A DNA stretch of 64,000 nt, taken from NCBI RefSeq assembly GCF_026262505.1, contig NC_067203.1, positions 25,029,411 through 25,093,410 of the forward strand, given 5' to 3'. Shown piece by piece: positions 11,201 through 32,154 of this stretch (its first letter is position 1; each line of letters starts with the position of its first letter). Both the position numbers and the translations under genes were made by a program. The stretch is from Trichomonas vaginalis G3 (taxonomy: Eukaryota > Parabasalia > Trichomonadida > Trichomonadidae). Under the pieces are notes generated by a model. It saw only the letters and a list, made by a program, of their open reading frames with translations. It made no database searches and was not told where the DNA came from.

Positions 11201-12112
11201 TTTTGGTTTGCCTTTCTTTACATCTGACATCGTTAAGCCTTCATATTCTGTTAAATCATACATCTTTATTTCGTAAGATTCTTTATGTTTGTCAAGAAGA
11301 AGTCATAGTGCATTTCAACAATACCTGCAGCATTTGCTTCTATCTCTGATATAAAGTTCTCCTTCAAGAGCTGATGTAGTAATGTTCCAATATTATTGAG
11401 GTTTAACGTAGAACATTCATACTTTCCACCAAGTTTATAACATACCATCCATCTCTGTTGGAGTTTATTTTAATTTTCTCTAAGAGTCTCATGAAAACCT
11501 TACCAAATGTTTGTGTAAGTAGTCTCTGTTTGGTTCATCTAAAGCTTCGATGTTAAAGTCAATGAGTCTATTGCCTGACTTCACATTTCTCTTCCTATTC
11601 TCTTCATCTTTCTTTAACCATCTCTCACCTTCTTTTGGTTTGTCGTCAATGGAACGAATGACATCGTTAGCTTTGCGAACTTGTTCTATAGCACTTTTAA
11701 ACATCTCTCTTCTCTGTTGTTTCAGTGTGTCATCTCTCTTTCGTGTTTCACCAACGTTTGCATTTGTTATGTCAAACATTCTCTTCTTACTCATGTGGTA
11801 CAGCTCTTCTTGTTCACCAACGTTTGCATTTGTTATGTCAAACATTCTCTTCTTACTTCATGAGTACTGAACGTCTATGATATAAGTCAATAGCAATGTC
11901 ATTTAAAGGAAATGCTCTTGCATGGACTTCGTCCTCGCCGCGTTGCGGCTTTATGAACTCATGAATTCTATCATAACTTATTGCACCATTATAGTCATTG
12001 AGTCAGCGAGTGCTTTTTGTTTGTTTGCGTAATGCTTTGCAACATCTATATTAGCTTCTGTAAGAAGTTGTTTTATTTCCGAGTGTTCTAACTTAGACAA
12101 CTTCCGATACAT
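8288..12112 (-). pseudogene. polB: Protein-primed family B DNA polymerase of the Maverick, frameshifted copy
   Basis: This replicates the element DNA; family members combine 3'-5' exonuclease and polymerase domains. The gene spans about 1270 codons from an ATG at 12112 to a stop at 8288. Exo I is FADFECSTDG (about 10330), Exo II is FHNLSYDINFIL (about 10185), motif A is DFDTVSLYPS (about 9540), motif B is NSIYGKT (about 9060) and motif C is YQDTDS (about 8790). The N-terminal quarter contains the block DNCFVYACIQAGV seen in such polymerases. At least six frame breaks (near 11975, 11860, 11450, 11270, 10760 and 9070-8970) mean it is not translatable as read. A GC-rich hairpin module at 11921-11949 lies inside the N-terminal coding region and is read in frame as PQRGEDEVHA. 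Confidence 0.9.
11921..11949 (-). repeat. GC-rich double-hairpin module inside the polymerase gene
   Basis: On the minus strand this reads as GCCGC-AAC-GCGGC, then GA, then GGAC-GAA-GTCC, then ATG. It stands out by GC content from the AT-rich gene. It is translated as KPQRGEDEVHA, matching an insert in the unrelated ORF at 24015 (RPQSGEDEVHE) and one in the ORF at 31858 (KPQCGGADAHK). The duplicated copy lies at 1611-1638. Confidence 0.8.
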
Positions 12113-12203
12113 CTTTAGTAGGAAATAAAAAAATATTTTTTGAAAAAATTAGATTAGATTTTTTTTAAGTTATTTTTCAAAATAATTTAATATTTTTATT
12201 TTA

Positions 12204-12674
12204 ATGAAACACATGCAAGATTGCAAGTTCTTTTCATACAATGCTCTCGCTACTGCCATCAAGAATGAGTTCAATAATGCAAACGTTAATGTTATCTTTA
12301 ACAAGAAGTTTGTGAAAGAATCTAAGTTTGGTCAGTATGTCAGACCATTAGCTATCGTCATTGACCGCAAACGTTATACTTCACAAGAGTTAGCAGTAGT
12401 TTTGAAACAAAAGAGTTTCTTCGTGAATGTCAAAGATACACACTATACTGTCATAAAGAACTCCAACATTGACTTCTTCAGTATTGCTATGAATCTTTCC
12501 GAACAGAAAGAATATAAGAAGGGTGAAACATCTGTGAAATATTATCCTTCATCTCTGAAGACAATAACGAACAAAGATGTTATACAAAAGTTCTTACCAA
12601 AGGTTGAAGAAGCTTCTATTGACATTGACGAAGGAAGTGAAATGGTTGAAGAAATTGACCCTGAAGCTATTTAA
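12204..12674 (+). CDS. Maverick protein of unknown function, 156 aa
   Basis: This intact ORF diverges from the polymerase gene. The 91-base spacer is almost pure A/T and ends in a T-rich leader directly at the ATG (TTTTTATTTTAATG). The protein is mixed alpha/beta with a central YTSQELAVVLKQKSFFVNV segment and an acidic tail (EEASIDIDEGSEMVEEIDP). No catalytic motif, signal peptide or membrane segment is visible. A decayed duplicate lies at 1895-2364. The stop is followed at once by a palindromic intergenic repeat. Confidence 0.7.
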   Translation: MKHMQDCKFFSYNALATAIKNEFNNANVNVIFNKKFVKESKFGQYVRPLAIVIDRKRYTSQELAVVLKQKSFFVNVKDTHYTVIKNSNIDFFSIAMNLSEQKEYKKGETSVKYYPSSLKTITNKDVIQKFLPKVEEASIDIDEGSEMVEEIDPEAI

Positions 12675-12777
12675 CCAAAAATATATTTTTGGTGAAGAGG
12701 TGAGATTCACCTGTTTTTTCACCTCATTCTCTCTTCGTTAATGTTGTCGTGACTTCTTCGTTAATGTTGTCGTGACT
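12675..12777. repeat. Palindromic GGTGAAGAGGTGAG repeat and short direct repeats between convergent genes
   Basis: After the stop codon lies GGTGAAGAGGTGAGATTCAC with matching CACC-rich arms to about 12725. Two copies of a unit of about 21 bases containing CTTCGTTAATGTTGTCGTGA follow at 12733-12775. The converging KilA-N gene ends at 12778. The location suggests a transcription terminator for both genes. Related palindromes flank other genes of this element. Confidence 0.65.
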
Positions 12778-13598
12778 TCATTCTTCCTCTTGAAGTTATC
12801 GAAATATTCTGTTATTTTTTCCTTCAGTAATGTAAGTCTTCTTTGAAGGTAAGTATTGTGCAACCTTTGATGTCATAGTGTGTTTGAGGAAGAGTATTTT
12901 TGACAATTTCTTTTATTTGCTCATTCGGTGTCATTGAAATCGGTAAGTTTTCACGATAGAACCAGTTTCTGTCAGATTTATATATTTAGCAAGGTCGTAA
13001 AAGCTTTTGTTGTTTCTTCTGACTAAATGCAACATAACCATATCTTTATCTTCTTCATTCTCCAACTCTTCAGTATATCATATACTTATAACTCTTTTCC
13101 TTTCCTTTTGGTACTGAACGTGGTATTCTTTTCTGTATGCTTTTGTCTTTGGATTCAATGACTTCATCTTTTGCTTGAAGTTTCTTTTCCATCTCTCCAC
13201 GTTCTGCTTTATATAGTTCATCTAACATCATGAAAATATAACAAGCATAACGAGGTGAAGCCCACATTGCTACAGCATTTACTAAAAGTCTATGAACATA
13301 ATAACCTTTCAAACCAGGTGCCAAATTCTTGCGATTTTCGTACGGAATCTCTTCCCTCGGTTTTCCGAGGGAAGCAATCATATGAGGAAATTCTTCTAAA
13401 AGTTCTTTTGCCTGTTGGTTTTCAAACCAATGATATGCTTGCTTTGTAGAACGAAGAGCGTTCATTATACTTTGCATTTGATACATATCATCTTTGACTG
13501 AACGAATGAGTCTCAATTGTTTTATATTGTATGTATTCGTATTCTTCATTTATGGCTTCATGAACGATAGCAGTTGTTGTGTTCTCTAATGTTGACAT
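12778..13598 (-). pseudogene. KilA-N domain protein of the Maverick, frameshifted
   Basis: KilA-N is a DNA-binding domain of phages, large DNA viruses and trichomonad mobile elements. The core is clear: GLKGYYVHRLLVNAVAMWASPRYACYIFMMLDEL (positions about 13350-13215, shown here only as its key segments YYVHRLLVNA and MWASPRY). The likely start is at 13598; an indel near 13520 separates it from the main frame, where an internal ATG lies at 13549. A second indel near 13080 separates the C-terminal part, which is lysine-rich and probably helical. It is head to head with the gene at 13705. The best guess is a regulator or DNA-binding protein of the element. Confidence 0.75.
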
Positions 13599-13704
13599 TA
13601 CTGTTCTTACATACAGGATAAAAAAATAAATAAAATAAAAACTAACTTTATTTTTTTGAGATAAACACTATTTCTTCACAACATTAAATTTTATCCTGTA
13701 TGAA
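13599..13704. promoter_or_regulatory. Symmetric bidirectional promoter region
   Basis: TTTTATCCTGTATG occurs on the plus strand right at the start of the gene at 13705, and on the minus strand (seen as CATACAGGATAAAA) next to the start of the KilA-N gene at 13598. The two copies form an inverted repeat around an A/T core. The arrangement is repeated at 3297-3404. Position and symmetry argue for a shared promoter element read in both directions. It is not the host-type initiator. Confidence 0.5.
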
Positions 13705-14080
13705 ATGACTTTAAAAAGATTATTGACTGACTTCGAATACTATCTCATTGACGCACTGACAGACCCTCAAAAACTGTGTTGAAAGTTCTTTAAGCTTTAA
13801 GATTGAAGGTACGACGCATTTTGTCTTCACTTACGTATTGAAAGAATATGACCGTTATCATAACGAAGTGAATCAAACACTAATAAAATTTGTAGATAAA
13901 AAATTGGTTAACAATGAATATTTTAAACGTGAAGACCCAAACACTGCTGGAGATGATGAAGAATACAGACAAGTTATTGAAAAAAATAACGCAAGATTAG
14001 ATGCAATAGAAAAGAAGTTTAATGAATGTCTTACAAACACGTATGAATATCTTATGCAGTGGGAAGCCAGATGGAAATAA
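13705..14080 (+). pseudogene. Small helical Maverick protein, about 125 aa, one frameshift
   Basis: The N-terminal 25 codons from the ATG at 13705 (MTLKRLLTDFEYYLIDALTD) are separated from the remaining frame by a one-base difference in an A-rich run near 13770. The duplicate at 3405 keeps the frame across this point. The body is charged and helical, ending in LMQWEARWK. The family is unknown. It shares its promoter region with the KilA-N gene. Confidence 0.6.
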
Positions 14081-14121
14081 ATTTACGTCAAATATGCAAT
14101 TTATAAAATCTTATGTCGACA

Positions 14122-14196
14122 GGCTACGTAGCACAGTGGTCTAAGGTGGTGTTATGGAGGGGTCAAGGTCTGTGGTTCGAACCGCGACAGCGCCGT
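14122..14196 (+). other. tRNA-like sequence with A box and B box, copy 2
   Basis: TAGCACAGTGGTCTAAGG is a good A box and GGTTCGAACC a good B box, with tRNA-like spacing and T-rich sequence downstream. The acceptor arms (GGCTACG against the 3' end CGCCGTA) do not pair well and the anticodon arm is not clear. It may be a decayed tRNA captured by the element, or an RNA polymerase III transcript of another kind. It lies directly after the small gene at 13705-14080. Confidence 0.45.
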
Positions 14197-14721
14197 ATTT
14201 TCTTATTTTCTTTATTTGTCTTGTTTGTCGTGAATAAAAAGTGTCATAAAAGTGCTCTATCTTCCACGGGAATAAATAAAAAATTTACTTTATTTCTTCT
14301 TTATTTCTTTGTTCCCGTGGAAGAAGGGTTTTGCTGTTTTTTCTCAGCCGAAATCAATGATTTTTTCATTTTTGGAATCCTTAGCGAATGAGGAATCTTT
14401 TCTCTCGTGGAAGCTTTGACCTAAAATATAATTTAGGTGAAGAGGTGAGATGTCACCTGTTTTCTCACCTCTTTTTTCACCCTCGTGACTTTGTCATAAC
14501 TTCTTCGTAAATGCTTTGTCATAACTTCTTCGTAAATGCTTTGTCATAACTTCTTCGTAAATGAGTGTAAATGACCAAAAATATATTATAGGTGAAGAGG
14601 TGAGATGTCACCTCTTTTTTCACCTAATTTCTCACCCTCATGAATTTTCATGAATTTCCTTAAGATAGAAAAATAACGTTAGTTTTATTTTTATTTATTT
14701 TTTTATTTTGTATGTAAAGAT
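14197..14721. repeat. Intergenic block with palindromes and three 25-bp direct repeats
   Basis: No gene is seen. It holds a 12-base inverted repeat CTTCCACGGGAA/TTCCCGTGGAAG (about 14260-14325), palindromes built on AGGTGAAGAGGTGAG (14430-14480 and 14590-14635), and three perfect head-to-tail 25-base units at 14489-14513, 14514-14538 and 14539-14563. The end is a T-rich leader running into the ATG at 14722. The 25-base units followed by a TGACCAAAAATAT stretch resemble, in reverse, sequence at 31389-31440 in the second element. Possible roles are terminator, promoter or replication origin. Confidence 0.6.
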
Positions 14722-15687
14722 ATGATTTCAACAATCGGCACAACAACAATTCAAGCCGCGAACGGCGGGACTCTGTCCACAACAACTTCACCAAACTCGT
14801 TAGTCATGAATCCAACATCTATGTTAGTAGAGATGAAAAGCTTCATTCCTTCTTCATATACTTTCGAAACAAAAATCCAGAAGATAAAGCAAGAACTTTT
14901 AACAAGTAATTTAGACTGTAGTGCGAAAGATGAAACAAATGAACAGTATCTTTATGAAATGCAGGACATTATTGACCATTTACCTAAACTACCTGAAATT
15001 CAGCATCAAAAACTAACTATTCCTGAATTCGATGAAATAGAAGTGAAACCAACTGACTCAGTAGAAATAAAGAAGTTCATTCGAAAGGTAAACTATGAGT
15101 TTCTAGGATTTCATTGCAACCATAAGGTTATGGACAAAGATTGCGACATGGTATATAAGAATGTTTCTGACATATATAAATCCGGGGAGTTTAAGACCTA
15201 CGATAACTTTGTTTCGTTAGTTGCTGAATGTGTATGGCAGATAAGAGATAAAGATAGAAGAGGTAAAATATGGAACGAACAGATAAGACCAACTGCTTTT
15301 GAGTTAAAGAAAACCATTGACGCCTTAGTTGTTTTAGCAGGTAAGGTTTCAGAATATAACGCAAAAATGAATCCGCAATGTTCTAAATGTAAAGCAGCAA
15401 TTAGGAAATATAACTACTCCGTCAAAGAGATAGAAAGAATGCGAAACGACTATGCAGACTTAAAGAAAGAAGCAGAAAAGCCAGCAGAAAATAAAATGGA
15501 CATGTTAGCATTTCTGAACAAAAACTATCCAACTGCTGACGATTTCCTTCTATCTGACGTCAAGAAGAAATATAAAGAAACTTTCGGCATTGTTAAAACT
15601 TTTGACATACTGACAGAAGAAATAGAAGCTACGAAATTGTTTAGGATTTCAAATATACATCGTACAATTCATGTAAAACGCTTGTGA
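14722..15687 (+). CDS. Maverick protein of unknown function, 321 aa
   Basis: This intact ORF follows a T-rich leader. The first 40 residues are Ser/Thr/Asn-rich and likely disordered. The rest is alpha-helical and charged, with one Cys-x-x-Cys pair (PQCSKCKAAIRKYNYSV) at about residues 225-240. No known catalytic motif, signal peptide or membrane segment is visible. A frameshifted duplicate lies at 4418-5374. Palindromic repeats lie on both sides. The family is not recognised; a structural or DNA-associated role is only a guess. Confidence 0.75.
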   Translation: MISTIGTTTIQAANGGTLSTTTSPNSLVMNPTSMLVEMKSFIPSSYTFETKIQKIKQELLTSNLDCSAKDETNEQYLYEMQDIIDHLPKLPEIQHQKLTIPEFDEIEVKPTDSVEIKKFIRKVNYEFLGFHCNHKVMDKDCDMVYKNVSDIYKSGEFKTYDNFVSLVAECVWQIRDKDRRGKIWNEQIRPTAFELKKTIDALVVLAGKVSEYNAKMNPQCSKCKAAIRKYNYSVKEIERMRNDYADLKKEAEKPAENKMDMLAFLNKNYPTADDFLLSDVKKKYKETFGIVKTFDILTEEIEATKLFRISNIHRTIHVKRL

Positions 15688-16020
15688 AAAACTGGGGTGA
15701 GAAAACAGGTGAGAAAACGGGTGACATCTCACCTCTTCACCTAAACATTATTTTACTGAATTTAGCAACAAAATTCTGAGTAAAATAATTTTTAGGGCTT
15801 GTGTCAAACCGTTGAGTTTTCACAAAATTTAAAAAATAACGTTTACCATGTGAAACGTTTATAAAATAACTAGGGTGAGAAAACAGGTGAAAAAACAGGT
15901 GAGATTTCACCTCTTCACCTAAACATTATTTTGGTGTAAATTTATGACAAAAATAAATGGTACCATTAATAATACATGACTGTTCTCATTCATGTCTGAT
16001 TTACATCCAACGAAAAAAGT
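15688..16020. repeat. Two palindromic GTGAGAAAACAGGTGA-type repeats between convergent genes
   Basis: At 15694-15745 and 15870-15930, direct runs of GTGAGAAAACAGGTGA pass into a stem ending CACCTCTTCACCTAAACATTATTTT. The phrase TAAACATTATTTT recurs at 25550, 31375 and 31565. The block separates the 321-aa gene from the converging integrase gene. A terminator role is likely from its position. Confidence 0.6.
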
Positions 16021-17107
16021 TTAGAAGAATTTTCTTATTCTTTCTGGCATGTTTTTATCTTTCCAGTACTCCCGCTCTAATGGTCCCAGATGAGTTGGTT
16101 TAGATTCTCTCAAGTTCTTAGATGGTATAACATCTTCAACGCCTCCTTCATATCTTACTTTATAAGTGTCATCGTTTGTGTTATAGTCAAGTATTTCAAT
16201 AACCACTCCTCGCTTTGCTTCGTCAATGGTTTCAGCAAGTTTGCCATTACTACTTTTCGACTAATTTATGTCGAGGGTAAAATGCTATGGAGTCGTCAGC
16301 AGCTTTTATAAGATATCCATTACCTTGCGTAGAGTCTACGATATAATAATTTCGACTTAACCTTAAAACGTTTCTTTGTCAATGGTTTGTCGTCAAGAAC
16401 TACACGAACTTTTGTACCAGGAATGAGAGTAAATTGTGTTGAATTTCTGATATTTTGTGTTTGGCTTCGTTTCTTTTGTATATACTTTTCTTCTTGTTGT
16501 TGTGTCATTGAATTTGGTGTATGTCCTGTTGTAGAATGTGTTGAGGAATTATATACTTCGAGAAAATGTTTCATTGTTTCTTCGGTAAAGTCTCGCTCTT
16601 GATTTAAATCTCTGAGCGTTCTTATGAAGCGGTTAATGATACGAGTATGTTATGGTTATGGTCTTCAGTAGTGTAGTGAGTTATGTTATGCTAATGAGAA
16701 ATTCTGTGATTTTCATTGCTGAGGTATGCACTGTCTTGGTCTGATGTTAAAATACTTGGGTTATTTCTGCTACAAACTTTTGTAAAACTCTTAACACTTC
16801 ACGAGTTCCTTTATTTTTCATTGGATATGCATATGCTTTACGAGTGTTAACATTTATGAAGATGAGGAATGGTTTATGTCCTCCTTTTCTGCTTTGAATG
16901 AGAGTGTCAAATTGGTATGCGTCAGGAGTGTTGGAGTAAATTGGTAAAAAGTAGTCGTAAGGGTTTATTTTTGTTTGATGTACAACATTTTTGTCAAAGA
17001 ACCCTTTTCACTTCAGCTCTGTTAGTAAATCCCCAACTCTTTGCAGCTTCATTGAATTTCTTAAATGACCTCCATGGATGTTGTTCGAATACTTCTTTCA
17101 AGCTCAT
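16021..17107 (-). pseudogene. int: Polinton-type DDE integrase, frameshifted
   Basis: This protein of about 360 aa inserts the element into DNA. The start is at 17107 (MSLKEVFEQHPW). The core shows the first aspartate in AYQFDTLIQS, the strand-turn region FINVNTRKAYAYP, the second aspartate in TSDQDSAYLSNE, and the third-motif helix LGIINRFIRTLRD. A basic SH3/chromo-like C-terminus follows (TLIPGTKVRVVLDD, then GGVEDVIPSKNLRES). Frame breaks lie near 17000, 16755, 16710, 16645 and 16300. At the third catalytic site, where related enzymes carry an acidic residue, Asn is read in both copies. It lies between the 321-aa gene and the fibre gene. Confidence 0.85.
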
Positions 17108-18840
17108 TTATGTAAAAATAAAGATTTTATTCTAGGCTCAAGTGCGTTCATTGAACGCGGTACCATGCAAATACAGTCACAAATGGTGGCATGTAATCTG
17201 CACCCGAGCCTGTTGGATTTGTTGTGAAAGTATGGGCATGATTTCCTGCGGTTCCACAGAAAATACCTGCGCTTGAATCTACTGGGTCACTTGAAATATC
17301 ATATCTATGCATTCCCTGTCTATCCGAACCTGCTGCAAGATTTGTATAACCTCTTTTTTGTTATTGAATGTGAATGACTACCTGTTGTGTTTGTAGTTCC
17401 TGTATGAGTGTGCGGTGGAAGGTTTGCTTCAGTAATTTTCTTCGAACCTCCTGTTTGCTTTGAAGAGTTAGCACAGTATAAGAATTTGTCTACAATCTCT
17501 GCCATGTACCAAAACCTAAAACTGTTGCGATTTGTTGAGTTCATTGACGTATAAATAGAGCCTATAGGATATAATGTTGAAGTATTTCTGTCTTTAATGT
17601 TTGAAGCTCTGTTTTGTCTGCTTTCTTGTCATATAAATCTTGAGCAGTGAATTTAATATTATGTTCATCCTTCATGACATAAACATCTTTACATCTAATG
17701 TTTTTCATCGTCGTTATGTCGTCCATCCGATGTTAAACCTTGTGGAAAGTTAGGAGGTTTACAATATAATGCATCCCCACCAGTTTCTTCAACCGTTCCT
17801 TCAATACTTTCTATAGCAACAGTTGTGAAGGATTTATGTGTATGGTTCTTGTCTGCTTTCTTATCTAACATTGCTGGTAGTTCATGTGCTTCAAAGTTTT
17901 CTGACACTGACCTTCGATATTCATACATTTGTTATTAAGGAGTTTAGTGTATCTTTTACGCTTGTACTTGGATTCTCTAAAGGTGCACTTGAACCAAGGT
18001 TAGTTCAATATTATGTCGTCTGCTCTAACAGTTGAGAAGGATTTATGTGTATGGTTCTTGTCTGCTTTACTGTCTAAAGAAGTTTGAAGTTCATTTATAT
18101 CGGAGATGTTGTGTTTATGAGATTTCAAAACTTTGTTCGTTGCGTCAAGTTCAACTTTGTCAGCTTTACTTTTAATAGCATCTTCAAACGTTATTTTTGC
18201 CTTAACTCTTAACATAAATCTTGGTTCAACTAATACACCGTTAACATTGAAAGTAGAGGCATAAATTTCACCGGTATAACCAAATGCTTCTGGTGCTTTA
18301 GCTACATCATACTGTACAGTACAGCTTATGTCATAACCTTTAGCACGAATGTATTTATATCTTCTTTCATTAACATTTTTTGTCTTCGCTTCATCACTTC
18401 GTGTTAAATATCCATGGTAGTCCGTTATAATCTGTTCGTCTGAAGTTATATAATGAACGTGGTTTTTATCTGCTTTTCGGCTAATTTCTCATAACATCAT
18501 TCACTTCTAATTCAACTCTTCCGCCAGAACTCTTATTATCATTAATCTTTTTCATTAATTCGGTAATTACGTCATAAAGACTATATTCTGTTTTCGGTTT
18601 TGTAAATAATGAGTCAAAATTTCTTTTCATCATTACATCGCTGACATTAATGATATCACCAATTCCTTTTTCATTTATTCTCTTCATTAATTCTGCAATA
18701 ATGACGAATATATAATCTGTTAATTTATTCTCTTCATCGAGGGTTATAGAATGTTTTGAAATTGAATCATTAACTCCTCTAAATAAATCAATAACTTCAG
18801 GATACACGTTTTTAATGTCTTGAATAACCCGACCAGTATC

Positions 18841-18876
18841 CTCGCCACTATGTGGCTCTGAGCCCGTTGGGCTCTG
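18841..18876 (-). repeat. GC-rich double-hairpin module inside the fibre gene
   Basis: On the minus strand AGAGCCC-AAC-GGGCTC is followed by GCCAC-ATA-GTGGC and then GAGGAT. It is read in frame as SPTGSEPHSGED, recalling the PQSGED of the module at 24125. Both stems have three-base loops. It sits between the helical part and the preceding acidic segment, probably as an insertion. Confidence 0.65.
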
Positions 18877-19544: not shown

Positions 19545-19610
19545 TCATGGGCTTCGCCCTGGTCGCTTCGGTCTGAAAGACCTTCAGGACTCAAAGAGTC
19601 CGTTTGCGAC
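19545..19610 (-). repeat. Complex GC-rich hairpin module inserted in a fibre repeat
   Basis: Read on the minus strand, an outer stem GTCGC/GCGAC encloses two hairpins (GGACTC-TTT-GAGTCC and GGTCT-TTC-AGACC) and is followed by GGGC-GAA-GCCCATGAC. It is therefore a small branched structure plus the usual terminal stem. It is in frame and adds about 20 residues directly after VPFIK, exactly where sister repeats of the protein continue with DGE. This makes it a clear insertion into pre-existing coding sequence. Confidence 0.75.
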
Positions 19611-20202
19611 TTTATGAAAGGTACACTGCAAACCGTCGAGTTTGGATCAAATGCTGTAGTTGGTGCAGGAATATTAATGATATAAGTCATTAAATCATTA
19701 AGTGACGTAAATAATGTTGTCTTTTGATTTAATTTCTTTAGCATCTGTTATATATGGTAATTTTATTTCTGTAGTTTCTGAATTAAAGATATTCGCTAAA
19801 ATGTTTTGTAAACTGTTTTGAACAGCTGTGTAAACCGTTGAATTCGGAACTCTTACGATTTCACCATCCTTAATAAAAGGCATTGTACATGACGTAGTGC
19901 TTGGGTCAAATCTTTCGGGATTATAATTCAACATATATTCTAACGCTTCATATACAACCTATAAACAGTTGTGTCGTTCTTCATGACAACTTCACCATTT
20001 ACAATGAATGGCATAGTACATGGAGTTAAAATAGGGTCAAACTTTTCATAGTCCTTCCATGTTATGTATTTCTCGGTATTTCCATCACTGATAACAATAT
20101 ATTTGTCAGTAAGTGTGAGAGAGTATTGACCAAAATATAAACGTTTAGCTCTGTCAGCTTCATACGCATATGCAGCAATACTCATATTTTAATGAGAATA
20201 AA

Positions 20203-23119: not shown

Positions 23120-23135
23120 TTTATCTCCATTAAAA

Positions 23136-24014: not shown

Positions 24015-24239
24015 ATGAGCTTGTTCTTGAAGGTCATTCATGATGAAATAACTGTTGTAGAAGATGTTAGCAATTGTTCAGACATTTTGAAGCGAATAGA
24101 TGAGATAAGAAAGAAGTTAGATAGACCGCAAAGCGGTGAGGACGAAGTCCATGAGAATGTTTATGTTTCATTGACTTTCTCCAGTAACGAGAACTTTTAT
24201 GAGATAATATTGAAGAGAGATGATTTTAATATGGTGTAA
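24015..24239 (+). CDS. Small Maverick protein, 74 aa, with hairpin-encoded insert
   Basis: The ORF is intact. Its ATG directly follows the TAA of the previous gene, and its own TAA is directly followed by the next ATG, so three genes are packed without any spacer. The protein has a short hydrophobic start, a helix (DILKRIDEIRKKLD) and strands at the end. Residues RPQSGEDEVHE come from a GC-rich double-hairpin module at 24125-24154. The function is unknown. Confidence 0.6.
   Translation: MSLFLKVIHDEITVVEDVSNCSDILKRIDEIRKKLDRPQSGEDEVHENVYVSLTFSSNENFYEIILKRDDFNMV
24125..24154 (+). repeat. GC-rich double-hairpin module inside the 74-aa gene
   Basis: ACCGC-AAA-GCGGT, then GA, then GGAC-GAA-GTCC, then ATGAG. 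It has the same layout and reading frame as the module in the polymerase gene on the opposite strand at 11921-11949. It encodes RPQSGEDEVHE in a protein otherwise unrelated to the polymerase. Confidence 0.8.
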
Positions 24240-24755
24240 ATGGTAGCTTGGGCAGCTTTAGGCGCAATGGGAACAAAAGCATTAGCATTTGGAGCAAAAG
24301 CACTTGGAGCTTATGACGCAGTAAATAAAATGAGTGGAGGAAGGGTTTCGAAGACATTAGATGCAAATAAAGGAAAGATTGGAGGCTGGGTTGCAAAGAA
24401 GTTAAGATTAAATAAAATAGGGCTCATAAATAAAGCATCCAATTTGGTTGCGACTGAGTCGGAAAATGCTTTAGGAAAGGACGATGAGTTTTCAAAACAT
24501 GCAAAAGACTTTAATGACCAGATGAAAGGTGAAACAATGCATTTAAATAGAGTCGATGGAACTCTTCCTCCACCAGTAGTTCTTCCGTATGGTCCCTATG
24601 GAATGTATGGAAACCCTTACGAAAGACCATTTGACCCATTGACTGGTGGAAGTAACTGGTATCATTACGGACGAAGAAGAAAGACAGTTAAGCTGGAGAC
24701 AGACGTGAAGAAAGCAACTAAAAAGAAACCAAGGAAGAGAGTTATAAAGCAATGA
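24240..24755 (+). CDS. Gly/Ala-rich, basic probable minor virion protein, 171 aa
   Basis: The ORF is intact. The N-terminus is a hydrophobic Gly/Ala helix (VAWAALGAMGTKALAFGAKALGAYDAV). The middle is Lys-rich, then comes a Pro/Gly/Tyr-rich stretch (LPYGPYGMYGNPYERPFDP), and the C-terminus is strongly basic (KKATKKKPRKRVIKQ). This mix of an amphipathic start and a DNA-binding-like tail recalls minor capsid or core proteins of adenovirus-like particles, but no sequence homology is claimed. It is last in a three-gene run with no spacers and is followed by a palindromic repeat. Confidence 0.6.
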   Translation: MVAWAALGAMGTKALAFGAKALGAYDAVNKMSGGRVSKTLDANKGKIGGWVAKKLRLNKIGLINKASNLVATESENALGKDDEFSKHAKDFNDQMKGETMHLNRVDGTLPPPVVLPYGPYGMYGNPYERPFDPLTGGSNWYHYGRRRKTVKLETDVKKATKKKPRKRVIKQ

Positions 24756-24911
24756 ATTCAAGTGGGTGAAAAAAGAGGTGAAAAAAGAGGTGAGATTTCA
24801 CCACTTCACCTAAATTTATTTTTGTGCTATGTTTTCATACGTGTGAGGGTGGTGATATCATTAATTTTTAAGTTTATTTTTAAGTTTATTTTTTATTTTA
24901 TTTTTATATAA
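24756..24911. repeat. Palindromic terminator-like repeat and T-rich leader
   Basis: After the stop codon, GGTGAAAAAAGA repeats run into a stem AGGTGAGATTTCACC and CACTTCACC (24765-24810). A stretch of TTTATTTTTAAG units follows, leading into TATATAAATG at 24912. The first part is probably a terminator and the second the promoter-leader of the next gene. Confidence 0.55.
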
Positions 24912-25232
24912 ATGACGAAAACTATTGAGATAACAAACTACAACGGTCATGAGTTCAAGAATTTGTTCTTCGTTCCTCGTGAAAATACATTCTATCAGAT
25001 ACGAGGGAGAAAGGGTAAAGTTAGTTTGAGCGTTTACGACAACAAACATAATGGGAGATATATAAAAGCAATAGATACAAATGGTAAACGTGTTTCATTA
25101 GCTTTGTCAAAACTTACAGGTATAAACTATGACAGTGATTTTGACCTATATGAAGAAGAAAGTGAGTCAGAAGATTATGAGCTGTTATGTGAAGCACAGC
25201 AATGGGAAGCGCTGCAATACTTTTGTAAATGA
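24912..25232 (+). CDS. Maverick protein of unknown function, 106 aa
   Basis: This intact ORF has the T-rich TATATAAATG leader. The protein is strand-rich at the start (FKNLFFVPRENTFYQIRG), has a basic middle (KHNGRYIKAIDTNGKRVSLALSK) and ends with an acidic run (YEEESESEDYELL). No family is recognised. Confidence 0.6.
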   Translation: MTKTIEITNYNGHEFKNLFFVPRENTFYQIRGRKGKVSLSVYDNKHNGRYIKAIDTNGKRVSLALSKLTGINYDSDFDLYEEESESEDYELLCEAQQWEALQYFCK

Positions 25233-25594
25233 GAACATTAGTGGGAACGTTAGTGAGAACGTTTATTTTTTCATTAGTGAAGTCGTTAGCGAAAATGTTG
25301 GTGAGCTCGTTAGTGAAGTGGTTGGCGGCTTTGTAAATATTTAAGGTTAAGTGAGTGTTGTCGTTTTGTGTTGTAAAATATACGTTACTGGTTTTGTAAA
25401 TATTTAAGGTTATATTGGGTAAGGTGGAACGCAGTGCCGCCGTACCCAAGATAACCATACTAACTTCGCAACATATACCATGTAAAACGCTTGTAAATAG
25501 TTATGTTAGAAAAGTGGTTAGAAAACGTGTTAGATCTAACATGCTAACATAAACATTATTTTTTCTATCTTAAGGAAATTTACGAACAAATCTA
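25233..25594. repeat. Degenerate GTTAGTGAGAACG-type repeats and palindromes, no clear gene
   Basis: Short units related to GTTAGTGAGAACG recur from 25240 to 25325. A 20-base phrase with TTTGTAAATATTTAAGGTTA appears twice (about 25330 and 25391). A perfect 12-base palindrome GTTAGATCTAAC lies at about 25527, next to CTAACATAAACATTATTTTTT, which matches the end of other intergenic palindromes in the element. The block leads into the split KilA-N gene. Confidence 0.5.
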
Positions 25595-25699
25595 ATGGCG
25601 AAACATTCACAAAAGGCACTTATAACGGTATTGAAGTCTTACGTAGAGACAAGGATGGTTACATTAATGCAACAAATATGTGTCAGCAGTTTAGGAAAG
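25595..25699 (+). pseudogene. 5' end of a KilA-N gene, cut by an insertion
   Basis: It starts ATGGCGAAACATTC and, after one missing base near 25615, encodes NGIEVLRRDKDGYINATNMC, the typical beginning of a KilA-N domain. Its last 81 bases (25619-25699) are repeated exactly at 27672-27752, where the gene continues. The simplest reading is that this was one gene interrupted by the element between the two repeats. Confidence 0.7.
25619..25699 (+). repeat. 81-bp direct repeat, left copy (partner 27672-27752)
   Basis: It is identical base for base to 27672-27752 and flanks the inserted element on the left. Sequence on either side of the pair is unrelated. It looks like a target duplication, but at 81 bases it is far longer than the usual 2-10 bases. 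Confidence 0.8.
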
Positions 25700-26004
25700 G
25701 AAACAATAAGAATTACCGAAAAAGTGACAAAACATCAAAAACAGGGAGGGGTCTCAATTTTTATTACTTATATTATTTTACAATATTTATATAAATACTC
25801 TTTATAATATATTTTACTATAAAATTATACCTCAAATTCAAATATTTAAAATATTATTTACATAATTATCTCAAAATTATATTTTTATATATTATTTTTC
25901 ATATGTATAAATCATATAATCTATATCTATGCAAATCTCATCTAAAATTTTTTGAAACAAACCGCTACCATTCTATAATGGTCCATCTTAAATTCATCAT
26001 AAAT

Positions 26005-27023
26005 TCTGGTACATGTTAGTACCAGAGTCTTCAAATCTCAAACACTCTGGTACCAACATGTACCAGACGCGAGTTTCCAATGCCCTCGTACGATTTTCTA
26101 TTAAGATCTTCTTGAATGAGAAGGTCTTCATAGAAACTCGTACGAGGGCTTCTCTTTTAAATACTCTGGTACCTGCTGGTATCGGAGTCGACTTTACAGC
26201 CCTTTCCCCAATTTTGAAGCTGGGGAAAGTTTTCAAGCAATGAAAGGGAAGCTCTCGCTATGAGGTGAAAATCTAGAATTTTTACCTCATAGCGAGTAAT
26301 CCTTTGTTAATTGCTTGAAAACTTTCTTCAAATTATCAAAATTTCGAGGAAAGTTTCCTTGCTTCAAAGTAGAGATGGAGCCCTTTGAGCCACTGCATAT
26401 AGGTCAGTGACTTAAAATACTCCATCTCTACTAGAAATCGCCAAAATTTGGGTCGCAATCTTTGAAATGCGACGCAAGTTTTGGCAATTTCGCGAGGGAC
26501 TTGCTCCATTTGGTGCATAGATTCACACTCTATGCACCAGATGGAACAATTCTTTCGCTGACAGCGGGAAACTTTGTCTGAATAGTTTAACATTCAGACA
26601 AAGTTTTCCGCTGTCAGAGAGGGAATGGAAGGGTAAGAGGTATATATTCATAATGTATACCTCTTACTCTTCCATTCCCTCAAGAAAGTTCAAAAACTTG
26701 GGTGCAATCAGTTCTGATTGCACCCAAGTTTTTGAACTTTATATAAGGAATTGTTGGCTATGATGTACTGATTCATGATCAGTACATCATAGCCAACAAT
26801 TCCTTCGCAAACAGTGGGAAACTTTGTCTGAATAGTTTAACATTCAGACAAAATTTCCCGCTGTCAGGGAGGGAATTAGAGGGTGGGAGATATATAGATA
26901 GACTATAAATCTCTCACCCTTTAATTCCCTCAAGAAAGTTCAAAAACTTGGTGCAATCAGAACTGATTGCACCCAAGTTTTTGAATTTTGTATAAGGAAT
27001 TGTTGGCTATGATGTGGATAGCC
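26005..27023. repeat. Tandem array of about 14 distinct long hairpins
   Basis: Successive stems, given as left arm / right arm: 26005-26027/26045-26067; 26083-26112/26119-26148; 26164-26173/26178-26187; 26202-26210/26221-26229; 26225-26271/26280-26326 (interrupted); 26369-26395/26405-26431; 26440-26457/26468-26485; 26501-26520/26530-26549; 26558-26583/26592-26617; 26619-26648/26652-26681; 26685-26711/26714-26740 (27 of 27 paired); 26745-26772/26778-26805 (28 of 28); 26811-26833/26842-26864; 26869-26897/26903-26931; 26935-26960/26963-26989. Loops are mostly 2-10 bases. The last four repeat the preceding four with a period of 250 bases. Stem sequences otherwise differ from one another. Confidence 0.9.
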
Positions 27024-27557
27024 GCTGCCAGACCAAATGAATTAACCGTTGTGAATAACGTTTCTGAATCTTTATTTAAAAAGATAAAATATCACGATTT
27101 TGGCTGCGTTAAAAATCAAAGAATTGATGTTTTTGTCAAAAATCTTTTAGAAGAAGTTGCACCCAATTACTTTTATCGTATTAAAAACGATTTACTTCAA
27201 ACAGGTTTTATTCCTTCAATTAGAATTCGCGAGCCTCGATTGACAGATTATAAAACAAAATTGAAAAGAGAAGTTCAATCACGTTTATACCAAGTATTAA
27301 ATTTTGTTCAGAATCAAGAAGCCAATTTGAATCCATTAAGATTTTTATTGGAAAATGCTGAAGAAAAACTTTCTCAAATAAATGAGAAGATACAAAATTC
27401 AATTACATATTTAAGATCGTTTGAAATTCCAAATGAATTGTTAGATACGTATATGTTAGAAATTAATGAATTTTGTTATAATTCTCCAGATTATATTTTA
27501 GAACATTTCGAAGAATTTTTAGATGATTTCAAAGAAAAGAATAATTTAATAGACTAA
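27009..27557 (+). CDS. Possible C-terminal remnant of a transposase, about 182 aa
   Basis: The ORF is open from an ATG at 27009. The N-terminal segment PNELTVVNNVSESLFKKIKY followed by RIDVFVKNLLEE resembles the part after the catalytic core in mutator-type (MULE) transposases, where a TNN..E stretch is followed by an F(I/V)..L helix. No DDE residues are present, so it cannot be active. The rest is helical and acidic (YILEHFEEFLDDFKEKN). Its 5' end coincides with the end of the hairpin array: AAGGAATTGTTGGCTATGAT is both an arm of the stem at 26745 and the start region of this ORF. The family assignment is weak. Confidence 0.4.
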   Translation: MMWIAAARPNELTVVNNVSESLFKKIKYHDFGCVKNQRIDVFVKNLLEEVAPNYFYRIKNDLLQTGFIPSIRIREPRLTDYKTKLKREVQSRLYQVLNFVQNQEANLNPLRFLLENAEEKLSQINEKIQNSITYLRSFEIPNELLDTYMLEINEFCYNSPDYILEHFEEFLDDFKEKNNLID

Positions 27558-27671
27558 AAAATTTATTATTTTTATTTATTGTGAATTTTAAATTGTCACT
27601 TTTTAAGTGTTACCCCCTATTGAAAGTGTCACTTTTTTGAGTGTCACTTTTTCGGAAATTCTTATATACTC

Positions 27672-28273
27672 CTTATAACGGTATTGAAGTCTTACGTAGA
27701 GACAAGGATGGTTACATTAATGCAACAAATATGTGTCAGCAGTTTAGGAAAGACTTTAGAAAGTTGTTGGAAAATAAGTCCTGGGAAGAGTATTATAAGG
27801 CATTTTGTGAAGAATATAGCAACCGTCTGAATTCCGGCGGTTGCTTTTTATACAAAATTCATGCAGGAATTCCTGATGAAATCAAACAGGTTAGAGGAAC
27901 GTATGTAGACCCAAGACTTATAAACTATATAGCAATGTGGGCTTCTCCAAAATATTGCATAGCAGTTGGAAAAATTATGGACTCCATAGACAAGAAAGTT
28001 CATGAGAAGTTAGATGAAGAAGAACTTGAAGATACAGTAGAGAATGCTAAACCTTTGTTTGAAGAAAAAGTTAGAAAAATGTGCGAAAAACAATTAGAAC
28101 ATGAACGTGAGTTATGTTATGGTTATAGAGATTCTCCATTCGAACTAGACCAATGGGAACAAGAAAATTTAAAGAGAGAATTTAGAGAATATGAACTCGC
28201 TAAGATAGCATTAGAAGCTGCAGAAAAGAAGTTAAAAGCTTGGGGTCGTTTTGTACAAAAATATTGTGAGTAA
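27672..28273 (+). pseudogene. KilA-N gene, main part, separated from its start by the insertion
   Basis: The open frame extends back to 27641 but has no ATG there, because the upstream sequence belongs to the inserted element. The KilA-N domain runs from NGIEVLRRDKDGYINATNMC through an aromatic KSWEEYYKAF stretch to GTYVDPRLINYIAMWASPKY. The C-terminal 90 residues are a charged coiled coil ending KAWGRFVQKYCE. The first 81 bases duplicate 25619-25699. KilA-N is DNA-binding. The gene is followed closely by hairpin modules. Confidence 0.75.
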
Positions 28274-28768
28274 ATGAACCATTTATTTTTGTCATAAAGA
28301 CGCAACGTGGCGGGGCATAGCCCATGACCCAAAAATAAATTTTATCGTTAAGTGACTCAAAGAGTCCGGAGACAAAGTCTCATGGTTTCAGGTTATTCAA
28401 TAATTAATTATTTTTGAAGAACTGAAGGTGTCACTACGTCACCATGTGTCACTCGGTTAATTAACTTCTCTGAAAAAATGAGACAACATGACATTTTGAC
28501 AACAGTCCTGGAAATAAATTTTATCGTTAAGTGACTCAAAGAGTCCGGAGACAAAGTCTCATGTTTACGTTAATGGTTTCAGGTTATTCAATAATTAATT
28601 ATTTTTGAAGAACTGAAGGTGTCACTACGTCACCATGTGTCACTCGGTTAATTAACTTCTCTGAAAAAATGAGACAACATGACATTTTGACAACAGTCCT
28701 GGAAATAAGATGCAGTCCAAAAATAAAGTTAGTTTTAAAATTATTTTTATTTTTTTATTCCTATATAA
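28274..28768. repeat. Two tandem units of about 180 bp with hairpin modules upstream of the helicase gene
   Basis: A GC-rich module lies at 28299-28328 (ending GGGCATAGCCCATGAC). Two head-to-tail units then start at 28334 and 28512; the second contains 12 extra bases. Each unit has GACTC-AAA-GAGTC and GAGAC-AAA-GTCTC hairpins (28354-28384 and 28533-28563), an ATTCAATAATTAATTATTTTT tract and GGTGTCACTACGTCACC. The same unit without the hairpins occurs in reverse at 31120-31640. The last 40 bases are a T-rich leader with TATATAAATG. Confidence 0.75.
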
Positions 28769-31080
28769 ATGACAGCAACAAACAACAACAGTAACTTTAT
28801 CATTTCTGATGAAAAATTTATTGATTCATTAGCCGAGGAATTAGTTGTGGCAGAAACTAAAACCCTCAACGAAAGAATTGGTGAAAATAAGATTGATTTA
28901 CATAACTACCTCAAACACGATGGAGGAAGAGGAAGGAAAACTGGTATGGCTTTATTAGTAAATAAAATTTCAAATTTAACGATTATAGATGTTGATATCA
29001 ATAAATCGTACAATGATGAACTTAAAGAAACAGTTAGAAAAGACATTTTATCAAAACTTTCGGATAAAGATGTTATCGTTAAAACCGCTTCAGGAGGTCT
29101 TCACATTTATTGCAACACTAATTTCTTCTATTCAACCTCGAACAGAATGATTAAATGTTATTCTTGCAATGATTATGATATTGATATCATGACTTCAATG
29201 GATGATTCAAAGCGTTCATTAGTGGTTATGGCTGATTCAAGAGTTCGCAAGAATGCAACAGAACCAATCAATACATACTCATTCATTCGTGGAAGTTACG
29301 ATTCAACATTAACCAGAACAGTGAATGATATATTAAATGATTTGAATATTAAGGTAAGAGTTGAACAAAAGAGCGAAGAAATAAAGACTATCATGAATGA
29401 AAACAAAGATGAAAACATTGACGATAAGCTTGCCCAGAGCATAGTTGATGGCATCAGTGATTTTGAAGTACATAATGACGGTGGAAACATGAATTTAGAA
29501 AAAGAAGTTACATTATTCACACTGTTTCAAGCTATTAATTCATTACCTAATCATTTAATTAATGAAGCATACGATAACGTTTATAACTTCTGCAGCTTAA
29601 CTGAAAATGCAAAAAGTAATTTTGAAAAAGCACGTAGTAGATATGCACATTTAATGACTTCTCCATTTTTTAGTGAAGATTCTAAAACTATACCAAAAGG
29701 AATATTATGATGAATATGTTTTACCTTTATTACGTAAGCCAAAAATAACATTTGATATAAAACTTGATGACTCGTTTTGATAACAGATATTAGACGCAAG
29801 GCTGAAAATCATCAGTATAAAAACAGTTCTGAAGTAATTGAGGATTTATCACGTGTAATCCGTTTTGTAGATTATGGAAACAAATACTTCATTCAGAAAG
29901 ATTACAACATACACGACAAAATGAATCAAATATCATTCGTTCTTCAATCAAACATGAAAGAGTCACTCAAAATGATTAAATTATTTAAAGAAGAAGGTAA
30001 AACAATAACAGCATGGGACGTACTACTAAATCAATTATCCTCATTAACCGTTAAGGGTGTTTGCTTCAAATCTGATTCCCCAGATGTTTTCTCAACGTTT
30101 CAGGGTTATAAATACAACGTTCTCGAAAAACCAGATTACTCAAAAATTGAGATGTTTATGAATTTCATTAAAGAAGCCATTTGTGATAATAACGATGAAG
30201 TGTATAAATACCTTCTCGGCTGGATTGCATCAATGATTCAACATCCTGGAATCAAGAATGAAACAGCAATTATTTTGAAAGGACTTCAGGGAACAGGTAA
30301 AAACAGATTTACAGACATTATTTCTGCACTCCTCGCTGGTTATTCATGTAAAAACATTACTTAAAATGAAGTGAGCTAACGGGTAATTTCAATTCAGTAG
30401 TTGAGAATAAAATGTTTCTTGTACTTAATGAACTCAAGAATGTAGGTGAAGACAGACTTGCAAACTTCAACGCTTTGAAATCAATTATTACAGATAATGC
30501 GATTAGAATTAATGAAAAGAATCAACCCAGAAGAACAGCTCAGAATGTTGCCAATTTCATTTTCGTAACTAACAACGTTTACCCTGTCAAAATTGAAGTT
30601 GGAGACAGAAGATACGTAGTTTTAAGAGTTAATGGTAAATTTAAGGGTCAATTTGATTACTTCAAGAATTTAATGGATTCATGCACAAAGGAATTTTATG
30701 ATAATTTACTAACATATTTTATCAATTACGACCTTTCATCATTTAATGTACGAATCATTCCGATGACTGAAGCCAAACAAGATTTAATAGAATTATCAAC
30801 AAATCCTTTAGATGTATGGATAAATACACATTATGATGAATTGTGTGCGGGTATGACGTGTAAAAATGCTCTATTCTGCAAACCATCAGACATGAAAGAC
30901 AAAAACTTTCAAATGAGCATTAAAGATAAATGTGATAAGAAACAGAGAAGAATAGATGGTAAACAAACATGGTGTTATGTTTTGAAAGAAGAAATGAAAG
31001 GATTATATAAACAGGTTGAACCAAACGATAATGAGGATTCATTTACTGACGATGAAATACCTGTAAATGATGCTTTATAA
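28769..31080 (+). pseudogene. PrimPol / superfamily 3 helicase replication protein, three frameshifts
   Basis: Proteins of this type prime and unwind DNA in virophages, large DNA viruses and plasmids. The N-terminal primase-polymerase domain has IIDVDI (Asp74, Asp76), SGGLHIY (His112) and YDIDI (Asp139). The C-terminal helicase has Walker A GLQGTGKNRF (about 30290), a Walker B-like MFLVLNE, sensor FVTNN and arginine finger DRRYVVL. About 770 codons in total. Frame breaks at about 29700, 29775 and 30360 make this copy inactive as read. The last 120 residues are acidic. Clusters of inverted repeats flank the gene on both sides. Confidence 0.85.
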
Positions 31081-31696
31081 AGTATGATTTGAATTTATTT
31101 TTGCATTAATCCCGCTGTGTTGTCAAAATGTCATGTTGTCTCATTTTTTCAGAGAAGTTAATTAACCGAGTGACACATGGTGACGTAGTGACACCTTCAG
31201 TTATTCAAAAATGCTTCATAAGTGCCTTCCCCTTAATCCTGCCGTGTTGTCAAAATGTCATGTTGTCTCATTTTTTCAGAGAAGTTAATTAACCGAGTGA
31301 CACATGGTGACGTAGTGACACCTTCAGTTCTTCAAAAATAATTAATTATTGAATAACCTGAAACCATTAACGTAAACATTATTTTTGGGTCATTTACACT
31401 CATTACGATGAAGTCATGACAAATCATTTTCGTAAATGTTGTCAAAATGTCATGTTGTCTCATTTTTTCAGAGAAGTTAATTAACCGAGTGACACATGGT
31501 GACGTAGTGACACCTTCAGTTCTTCAAAAATAATTAATTATTGAATAACCTGAAACCATTAACGTAAACATTATTTTTGGGTCATTTACACTCATTACGA
31601 TGAAGTCATGACAAATCATTTTCGTAAATGTTGTCAAAATGTCATGTTGTCACAAACTTTAGAACGGCATAATTTAAATTTTTATTTTTATCATAA
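31081..31696. repeat. Three to four units of the flanking repeat, inverted relative to 28334-28710
   Basis: Units starting at about 31120, 31248 and 31439, plus a partial one at 31629, begin TTGTCAAAATGTCATGTTGTC and contain GTTAATTAACCGAGTGACAC. Two of them continue into ACGTAAACATTATTTTTGGG and CATTTACACTCATTACGA. That last part resembles the reverse complement of the intergenic block at 14500-14590 in the first element. No gene is seen. Origin or terminator function is possible. Confidence 0.75.
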
Positions 31697-31861
31697 ATGG
31701 ATACCCCACAAGCTCAAAATTTACCACGAATCATAACAAGGGAGGAAACGATAAAAATGATGCGAGAACTTGCTAAAAATAACAAACCACTAAAACTGAG
31801 AAAATGTGGTTATGCAGTAATGATGGAAAGAGAGATGTTGTCAAAGAAAAATAAAAATTAA
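31697..31861 (+). CDS. Small basic ORF, 54 aa
   Basis: MDTPQAQNLPRIITREETIK, then basic residues and a C-terminal KKNKN. It has the same T-rich leader (TTTTTATCATAAATG) as other genes of the element and ends at the stop codon of the converging gene, overlapping it by four bases. No family is recognised. Confidence 0.5.
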   Translation: MDTPQAQNLPRIITREETIKMMRELAKNNKPLKLRKCGYAVMMEREMLSKKNKN

Positions 31862-32154
31862 ATTTGGATTGAGTTTAAAAATTCATCTTTATTAAATTCA
31901 TCTCTTCCAATCAATTTATTTATTCTATTAAATTCTTTTATTTTTGCTTCACCCAGTTTAAGGATTGAACGGTAAGTTTCTAATTTTTCGATTATTTCCT
32001 TCTTCTCTTCATCGTTTTCAGTTCCATTAGTTTTATGGGCATCAGCCCCACCGCATTGGGGCTTCTTTTTGTAATAGCATATTTTTGATTTAATTCTGTT
32101 TAGTTTCTTTTTATATTCATCGTCAGGACTCTTGACTGCTTTGTTGTCACTCAT
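31858..32154 (-). CDS. Small coiled-coil protein with hairpin-encoded insert, 98 aa
   Basis: This intact ORF is Lys/Glu-rich and helical (EEKKEIIEKLETYRSIL). Residues KPQCGGADAHK come from a GC-rich module at 32034-32065 and match the inserts in the polymerase (KPQRGEDEVHA) and the 74-aa protein (RPQSGEDEVHE). It ends head-on against the 54-aa ORF and lies downstream of the integrase gene. The function is unknown. Confidence 0.55.
   Translation of the reverse strand: MSDNKAVKSPDDEYKKKLNRIKSKICYYKKKPQCGGADAHKTNGTENDEEKKEIIEKLETYRSILKLGEAKIKEFNRINKLIGRDEFNKDEFLNSIQI
32034..32065 (-). repeat. GC-rich hairpin module inside the 98-aa gene
   Basis: On the minus strand: AAGCCCCAATGCGGTGGGGC, then TGAT, then GCCCAT. 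The first stem is GCCCC/GGGGC. It is translated in the same frame as the modules at 11921 and 24125. It shows that the module family is shared by the two mobile elements of this window. Confidence 0.7.

Follow-up and report, generated by a model that had tools for sequence, protein, structure and literature searches.

How does one small palindromic sequence, and with it much the same short peptide, come to lie in unrelated genes of a single stretch of DNA? The question is raised by 64,000 nucleotides (nt) of the Trichomonas vaginalis G3 genome (G000:C1:25029411-25093410, called the window below; the assembly holds 180.85 Mb in 86 contigs), the first half of which is occupied by genes of Mavericks, virus-like transposons of which 4,808 are listed in this species (PMC7845603; this and the other papers cited are drawn on in excerpt). 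A sequence-only reading of the window had described GC-rich double hairpins lying in frame in unrelated genes and had suggested that they may be a mobile palindrome. Double hairpins are indeed present at the places it had named, in coding sequence at 11924-11950 (minus strand) and 24124-24150 (plus strand) and as variants at 8200, 8257, 18844, 28354 and 28533, and the DNA does encode the peptides it had given, PQRGEDEVHA, PQSGEDEVHE and PQCGGADAHK.

The module is a 27-nt insertion consisting of an A, hairpin 1, two bases and hairpin 2, typically situated between ATRA and ATG, and it is present or absent at identical positions in otherwise near-identical gene copies. We consider it a non-autonomous mobile element of Maverick DNA (an A plus a 26-nt double hairpin), with a probability of roughly 0.78 for this explanation as a whole, including the route of movement proposed below.

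Sites are given roman numerals: site i lies in the N-terminal part of polymerase 1, site ii in a gene for a protein of 74 amino acids (aa), site iv in a repeat unit of the "fibre" gene, site vii in the same gene, sites v and x in polymerase 2, and sites iii and viii outside notable open reading frames (ORFs). The name polymerase 1 follows homologues labelled organellar and viral DNA polymerase type B, and polymerase 2 follows three homologues labelled DNA/RNA polymerase superfamily, the 383-aa ORF of the latter matching no Pfam family above its cut-off; "fibre" is the label of the sequence-only reading, and a 214-aa piece of that gene has no Pfam match. The coding modules of the window at sites i, ii and iv are as follows.

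11924..11950, minus strand: site i module in the N-terminal part of polymerase 1, GGAC-TTC-GTCC TC GCCGC-GTT-GCGGC T in plus-strand letters, encoding KPQRGEDEVH; empty alleles and homologues known
24124..24150, plus strand: site ii module in the 74-aa gene (24015-24239), LDR-type allele LDRPQSGEDEVHE, with flanks unlike those of the empty alleles
19549..19611, minus strand: site iv nested module of 63 nt in a "fibre" repeat unit, GTCGC-AAA[34-nt double hairpin]AA-GCGAC CA GGGC-GAA-GCCC; empty alleles known
19569..19602, minus strand: the nested 34-nt double hairpin itself, CGGACTC..GACCG, within the hairpin-1 loop of site iv

The ORF at site i is broken in the window, with 49 open codons, and an intact copy in locus L020 has 396.

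Filled and empty alleles of the same sites

Natural copies without the module were found at four coding sites, 157 in the 74-aa gene, 63 in polymerase 1, 286 in the "fibre" gene and 4 in polymerase 2, and the reversed controls gave 0; sites iii, vi, vii, viii, ix and xi lay outside this search. The empty word of site ii, AAGAAGTTTATGAATGAGAA, accounts for 79 + 78 genome matches, and from the pair of FM-type and empty alleles at this site the empty words of sites i, iv and v were predicted before any search was made with them. These predicted words matched 34 + 29 times at site i (60 exactly and 3 at two mismatches), 149 + 137 times at site iv, and 2 + 2 times at site v, there each with 1-2 mismatches. 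The site v empties have a flank, ACGATAAAAC, that is also the flank of the filled copy L113. In all the empty copies fetched, six from site i, six from site iv and four from site v, the same reading frame runs uninterrupted through the site, and no target-site duplication longer than one possible A is seen.

At site ii the difference can be read base by base. The flank-pattern set comprised 18 FM-type, 20 LDR-type and 19 empty rows (17 distinct, as two repeat a place), and omits six fetched copies (L005, L095, L124, L129, L132 and L136). Between TTTATGA and ATGAGAA the FM-type alleles are longer than the empty ones by exactly 27 nt, save for three FM copies that have small deletions, while the LDR type, to which the window copy belongs, is flanked by TTAGATAG and GTGA or ATGA and has no known matching empty allele. 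In a tree of the site ii flanks (36 copies) filled and empty copies are intermixed, and in a comparison with 19 filled copies 2 of the 17 empties proved to share all 500 flanking bases with a filled one. The same alternation is seen in the protein: P0020, one of 22 homologues of the 74-aa protein, reads KKFMNENAYV and is without PQRGEDEVH, and P0017 and P0019 are longer by 12 and 11 residues.

Given that distant homologues and paralogous units are without the module, we take the empty state to be ancestral at sites i, iv and v. In an alignment of 13 polymerase 2 sequences the module at site v is found in the query only; seven T. vaginalis homologues (P0023-P0029) and the distant P0031, P0032 and P0033 (45%, 42% and 47% identity) show a nine-residue gap there, P0030 (60% identity) lacks a further four residues, and P0034 stops at that position. 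Among 14 sequences aligned over the N-terminus of polymerase 1, from which the weak match P0048 was left out, ten including the query are filled, P0044-P0046 read INNKTFPL, and P0047 (59% identical) is also unfilled. The empty "fibre" allele, PFINDSS, has the same length as two module-free paralogous units. The empties were also considered as excision footprints of a 4-bp duplication, a reading ruled out by the difference between the two flanks at sites i, iv, v and x and by the length of the empty form, which P0031, P0033, P0047 and the two "fibre" units match; P0030 and P0032 depart from that length by a few residues.

Two side observations concern these polymerases. The repeat units around MFDITNANVG in the polymerase 1 N-terminus differ in number among copies (window 11489-11845; L020:3-1154; polymerase 1 alignment). 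The polymerase P0032, which resembles those of these Mavericks, is filed under a Rikenellaceae bacterium metagenome-assembled genome on a 2 kb contig, and this record is probably a binning error from a gut protist.

Target motif and reading frame

The empty alleles allow the target to be read directly, as CATAA^ATGC, TATGA^ATGA, CATAA^ATGA, AATAA^ACGA and AATGA^ATAC, and for site vi a target CTATG^ATGA was inferred. Sites i and iv and the FM type of site ii thus have the motif ATRA^ATG, of which sites v and x show variants. Intact modules at sites i, ii, iv and v are in frame and free of stops, the length of 27 nt preserving the frame.

The sequence-only reading had suggested that the palindrome may be adapted to being tolerated within proteins, a view that the shared frame does not support. 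Of the two other frames of ATRA^ATGA, one is closed by TAA or TGA and the other by TGA; in 41,858 bases of Maverick ORFs ATRAATGA occurs 17 times in sense, every time in the same phase, against 10 times in antisense. The common frame of the modules is therefore largely the result of a target that is open in one frame only, and since the target already fixes the frame, the latter is no evidence for adaptation of the peptide. The sense orientation of sites i, ii, iv, v and x might have hinted at an RNA route, but this idea was given up, since with 17 sense against 10 antisense occurrences five of five is roughly a 10% event.

Copies, nested elements and stems

The second hairpin with ATGA, GGACGAAGTCCATGA, has 936 matches in the genome at up to one mismatch (484 + 452) against 0 for the reversed control, and the variant GGBCNNAGNCCATGA has 430 against 4. 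Of 100 variant matches listed, 95 have GGGC/GCCC and 5 GGTC/GACC, all complementary in spite of the free partner base. The 47 loci fetched from 100 listed of the 936 fall into only two sites (19 at site ii and 28 at site iii), and 19 loci fetched from the variant list bring in sites iv, v, vi and viii; because the fetched loci collapse into so few sites, the high module count largely reflects the copy number of the Mavericks. Independent sites of the standard build number about eight, of which sites i and ii have an identical 26-nt core. In an arbitrary sample of 200 kb (20 loci, contigs C1 and C2 only) double hairpins of the same build occurred in L011, L019 and L020, all three of which also match the Maverick half of the window, and double hairpins of other builds in L018 and L023. 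As a separate observation, inverted pairs of GGACGAAGTCCATGA about 1.2 kb apart recur three times, every 12.3 kb, on C2 (G000:C2 ~5276394-5302132; the first pair was fetched, in L031), which suggests a tandem Maverick array with inverted junctions.

A second element of like build is nested in the first, the AAA loop of hairpin 1 being replaced by AAA-CGGACTC..GACCG-AA. Its left 22 nt occur 216 times in the genome (113 + 103; control 0), and among the 100 copies listed all follow C-AAA or C-TAA of hairpin 1, in nine left contexts: 33 TAAAGTCGC, 37 TAAAGCCGC, 13 TGAAGTCGC, 4 TGAAGCCGC, 4 TAAAGACGC, 5 ATGAGCCGCT, 2 ATAGACCGC, 1 TAAAGACTC and 1 ATAAAGCCC. The nested form is found at site iii (L006, L040, L053, L062), at site iv (the window, L072 with changes, L076, L077, L082 and L087, with a short form in L080), at site v (L069, with ten short forms and a partial remnant in L111) and at site ii (P0017, P0019). 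At sites iv and v it lengthens the allele by 36 nt (12 codons) and at site iii by 35 nt, while at site ii the protein P0017 gains 12 residues. The site iv variant that the sequence-only reading had placed at 19545 is present, and is in fact this 63-nt form.

Site x, some 50 codons downstream of site v in polymerase 2, displays several states at one position. It is empty in L109, L116 and L019, which read EELMNTLNE, and filled in L153 and L154 (KPQTDQTAGTLSH in the latter); L071 and L115 have the beginning of a nested form, and L088, L110, L155 and L156 have six extra nucleotides that look like decay products. Short in-frame remnants are of 6 nt at site x and of 9 nt at site v.

The stems vary by compensatory change, a conclusion supported by 15 distinct 27-nt alleles, which are related sequences and come mostly from site ii, so that the covariation counts as support and not as a probability. 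Stem cells are paired in 96.3% of cases, compared with 26-48% in slid structures; at three of the nine stem pairs both bases have changed (15 cells, against a mean of 5.1 in shuffles), and the covariation score, 0.313 against 0.151 shuffled, was not attained in any of 500 shuffles. L090 and L091 carry alleles with a single mismatch.

A mechanical scan of the window gave 23 overlapping rows at 12 distinct places, among them one ORF start in two copies (4450, 14755) and two long palindromes side by side (26685); of ten dinucleotide-shuffled sequences nine gave 0 and one gave 3. DNA folding returned z-scores of -2.6 to -4.0 for four of five modules tested, that at 8195-8230 scoring -1.6. The remaining double hairpins of the window are these.

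1614..1639, minus strand: further copy of site i, from a different Maverick fragment, its frame shifted by a 1-nt deletion in hairpin 1
8199..8224, plus strand: site viii copy 1, GCCGC-TA-GCGGC AA GGGC-GAA-GCCC ATGA, in no notable ORF
8256..8281, plus strand: site viii copy 2, 57 bp beyond copy 1
18844..18874, minus strand: site vii in the "fibre" gene, GAGCCC-AAC-GGGCTC AGA GCCAC-ATA-GTGGC then GAGGAT, peptide PHSGED
28298..28323, plus strand: site iii variant between ORFs, GACGC-AAC-GTGGC G GGGC-ATA-GCCC, hairpin 1 imperfect
28354..28381, plus strand: site ix copy 1, GACTC-AAA-GAGTC CG GAGAC-AAA-GTCTC ATG
28533..28560, plus strand: site ix copy 2
32037..32063, minus strand: degenerate module-like 27-nt segment in a 98-aa gene (31858-32154), PQCGGADAHK, stems partly paired

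The hairpin-1 loop at 8200 and 8257 is of 2 or 4 bases, and the usual second hairpin does not form at site vii. The variant reported at 28299 is present with its imperfect hairpin 1, and the 28 loci fetched for GGACGAAGTCC have that hairpin 2 in place of the window's variant. The third coding case, reported at 32034, stands in part: the 27-nt register is kept and 16 of 17 copies have AGCCVCAATGYGGTGGGGYTGATGCCC (L193 differs), but hairpin 2 is poorly paired, and the segment may be an old, fixed copy of the module.

Among neighbouring features, DNA_pol_B_2 (PF03175) matches two window ORFs (9036-9752 and 9878-10549) and KilA-N matches at 27641-28270, both by Pfam. The double hairpins of site ix are spaced by about 180 bp in the window and by about 280 and 180 bp in L011 (5449-6215). 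Another double hairpin, GCCG-CGAA-CGGC G GGAC-TCT-GTCC, starts an ORF (IQAANGGTLS) in two Maverick fragments, at window 4450 and 14755. Two long near-perfect palindromes (about 56 and 61 nt) lie adjacent at window 26685-26805 and have no sequence kinship to the module; the same pair recurs in L018 (4173-4293, 4423-4543, 4672-4792) with a repeat of about 250 bp. At site xi a double hairpin GGTCC-AGA-GGACC TG GGCTC-AGA-GAGCC lies inside a 326-aa ORF (L019:2797-2824, minus strand), and by eye the stretch appears absent from the related 190-aa protein of the window.

A bacterial or viral origin of the module was considered and rejected. Degenerate module patterns match 4 and 30 stretches of IMG/VR, which have a G+C content of 0.55-0.73 and no left ATRA and were judged chance. 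Neither the nested element in its exact form nor a longer module pattern had any match in IMG/VR, a search there with the distant polymerase P0031 confirmed no relative, and the exact 34-nt nested element gave 0 in bacterial and archaeal genomes, where the main module was not searched.

Explanations and related systems

Mavericks encode a type B polymerase. Their replication is protein-primed and proceeds by strand displacement, so that single strands become exposed. The lack of duplication, the short target motif, the two mini-hairpins and the confinement of the second unit to a loop suggest folded single-stranded DNA as the moving form, and such a strand could be exposed during strand-displacement replication of a Maverick and its hairpins copied or joined between ATRA and ATG. 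This might proceed by template switching at the four-base microhomology of ATRA and ATG, or through an undescribed nuclease that recognises hairpins. Single-strand transposases of the IS200/IS605 type would suit such a route. A search for the Y1 transposase (PF01797), the only enzyme family looked for and made without a search for an autonomous relative, gave 0 matches in the genome with 5 of 14 control genomes positive, and on that account template switching or an undescribed enzyme is favoured. Once in a Maverick gene the module would be multiplied and shuffled by Maverick transposition and recombination, and would decay through slippage deletions; proteins would tolerate it given that the target leaves one open frame and that the added peptide is short and hydrophilic.

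Several observations weigh against this explanation. The window's own LDR-type copy at site ii has flanks (AGATAG, and GTGA or ATGA) that differ from those of the empties, leaving its insertion unexplained, the pattern empties of site v number only 4, none of them exact, and the 98-aa gene has no empty allele in 17 copies (the window's and 16 fetched of 150 scored, from 1,032 candidates). The independent sites are few, at about eight, the target rule comes from five observed empty targets and one inferred, and with the looser ATRAATG only 24 of 35 sense occurrences are in the phase used. Two of five covariation measures are weak, since 22 of 500 shuffles had at least as many pairs changed on both sides and 498 of 500 at least as many further pair types, and most of the rows come from site ii. 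Alleles have been mixed by recombination between Mavericks, the transposase search was negative, and the low expression of Mavericks (PMC7845603) bears on tolerance at the protein level.

The free mixing of flank single-nucleotide polymorphisms with module state, the near identity of modules within one site and the sheer number of Mavericks (4,808 listed; PMC7845603) would all fit a handful of old insertions, with an element not moving now and variation generated by gene conversion or duplication among thousands of Mavericks. This is compatible with insertion as such and deserves weight, yet we think it unlikely, since some eight sites and nested forms at four or more of them require repeated copying; two empties equal filled copies over 500 flanking bases, although conversion could do likewise. 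That the double hairpin is a conserved functional signal for RNA processing, packaging or regulation, and not mobile, is highly improbable: compensatory change keeps its stems and several copies are intergenic, but many otherwise similar gene copies are without it at the same sites, the sites differ between Mavericks, and Rfam gave 0 matches in window positions 1-36000.

More improbable still is a module ancestral in each gene, with the empties arising by exact deletion of the double hairpin through slippage across stem bases. Hairpin-bounded deletions do seem to happen, as the in-frame remnants at sites x and v indicate, but the distant P0030-P0033 and P0047 and the two paralogous "fibre" units are without the module, nested elements lie at several sites, and the same sequence at unrelated sites requires copying anyway. 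Least credible is the view that the product lacks the module, spliced out as a very short intron or skipped as a translational-bypass element. Introns follow the splice-site rule GT..AG, and no GT..AG lies in the 27 nt at either boundary choice; moreover, intact copies at sites i, ii, iv and v read through the module in frame and meet no stop, so that neither device is needed. The points in favour of this reading are that type B introns of T. vaginalis are of about 25 nt, the shortest 23 (PMC12316389), and that the bypass inserts of Magnusiomyces mitochondria are palindromic (PMC6649704, PMC5009743).

The insertion of a mobile palindrome, precisely and in frame, into unrelated Maverick genes, as the sequence-only reading had proposed, is thus borne out by the empty alleles at four coding sites; Maverick orthologues are not uniformly filled, and the copies share a frame and conserved stems. 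Its parallel with the Rickettsia palindromic elements holds too, these and the GC clusters of yeast mitochondria being the closest kinds. The Rickettsia elements likewise lie in ORFs without loss of frame, a DNA polymerase gene included, but they are bacterial, 100-150 bp long and described in orthologues filled at the same locus (PMC3767692), whereas the module has 27 nt (63 nested), lies in nuclear Maverick DNA and has filled and empty alleles within one genome. The yeast clusters (GC42 and others) share with it short GC-rich hairpins, presence/absence polymorphism, merger of units, footprints and stems more conserved than loops, but are mitochondrial, of 42 nt, and flanked by AG or ACT direct repeats (PMC4478555), a duplication that the module with its target near ATRA^ATG does not show.

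Other systems are more distant. Palindromic repeats of Volvox organelles are short, have loops of 3-5 nt and insert into each other, but in the excerpted account are confined to intergenic and intronic organelle DNA, one ribosomal RNA module excepted (PMC2670323). The Magnusiomyces inserts are palindromes inside protein genes that disrupt the frame and are skipped in translation (PMC6649704, PMC5009743), unlike the in-frame module. Submariner, a miniature inverted-repeat transposable element (MITE) of Pandoravirus salinus, is also non-autonomous, resides in a viral genome with 10 of 30 copies in coding regions and has a paralogous empty site, but measures 243 bp, with terminal inverted repeats and a TA duplication (PMC4495683). 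MITEs are defined by terminal inverted repeats and target-site duplication, and the module has instead two separate hairpins and at most one possible duplicated A. Insertion of the IS200/IS605 type takes place without target duplication and at a short motif, as does that of the module at ATRA^ATG. The ends of IS200/IS605 and the repetitive extragenic palindromic (REP) elements resemble the module only in how they work, as folded single-strand palindromes adjoining a short motif (PMC8266576). Both need an HUH Y1 enzyme, and none was found in this genome (PF01797).

We suggest tentatively, and at rather less than even odds, that the module represents a new class: a folded single-strand parasite of virus-like transposons, 26-27 nt long, entering at ATRA^ATG without duplication, accepting a second element of the same build only in its hairpin loop, and spreading by an enzyme-free template switch or an undescribed hairpin-recognising enzyme. 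No description of hairpin insertions in Trichomonas Mavericks was found in the titles and abstract openings of the open-licence papers listed by the literature searches. In the papers drawn on here, mobile coding palindromes are reported from Rickettsia, Wolbachia and organelles and, as larger MITEs, from a giant virus (PMC5009743, PMC3767692, PMC4495683). Those of T. vaginalis are far smaller and lie in virus-like Mavericks of the nucleus, where a single genome offers numerous filled and empty versions of each of several sites. The movement of palindromes thereby becomes testable, as the copies record the junctions, the target motif, the order of nesting and the products of decay, and the explanation of a shared frame by the target motif may merit checking for other palindromes that lie in frame.

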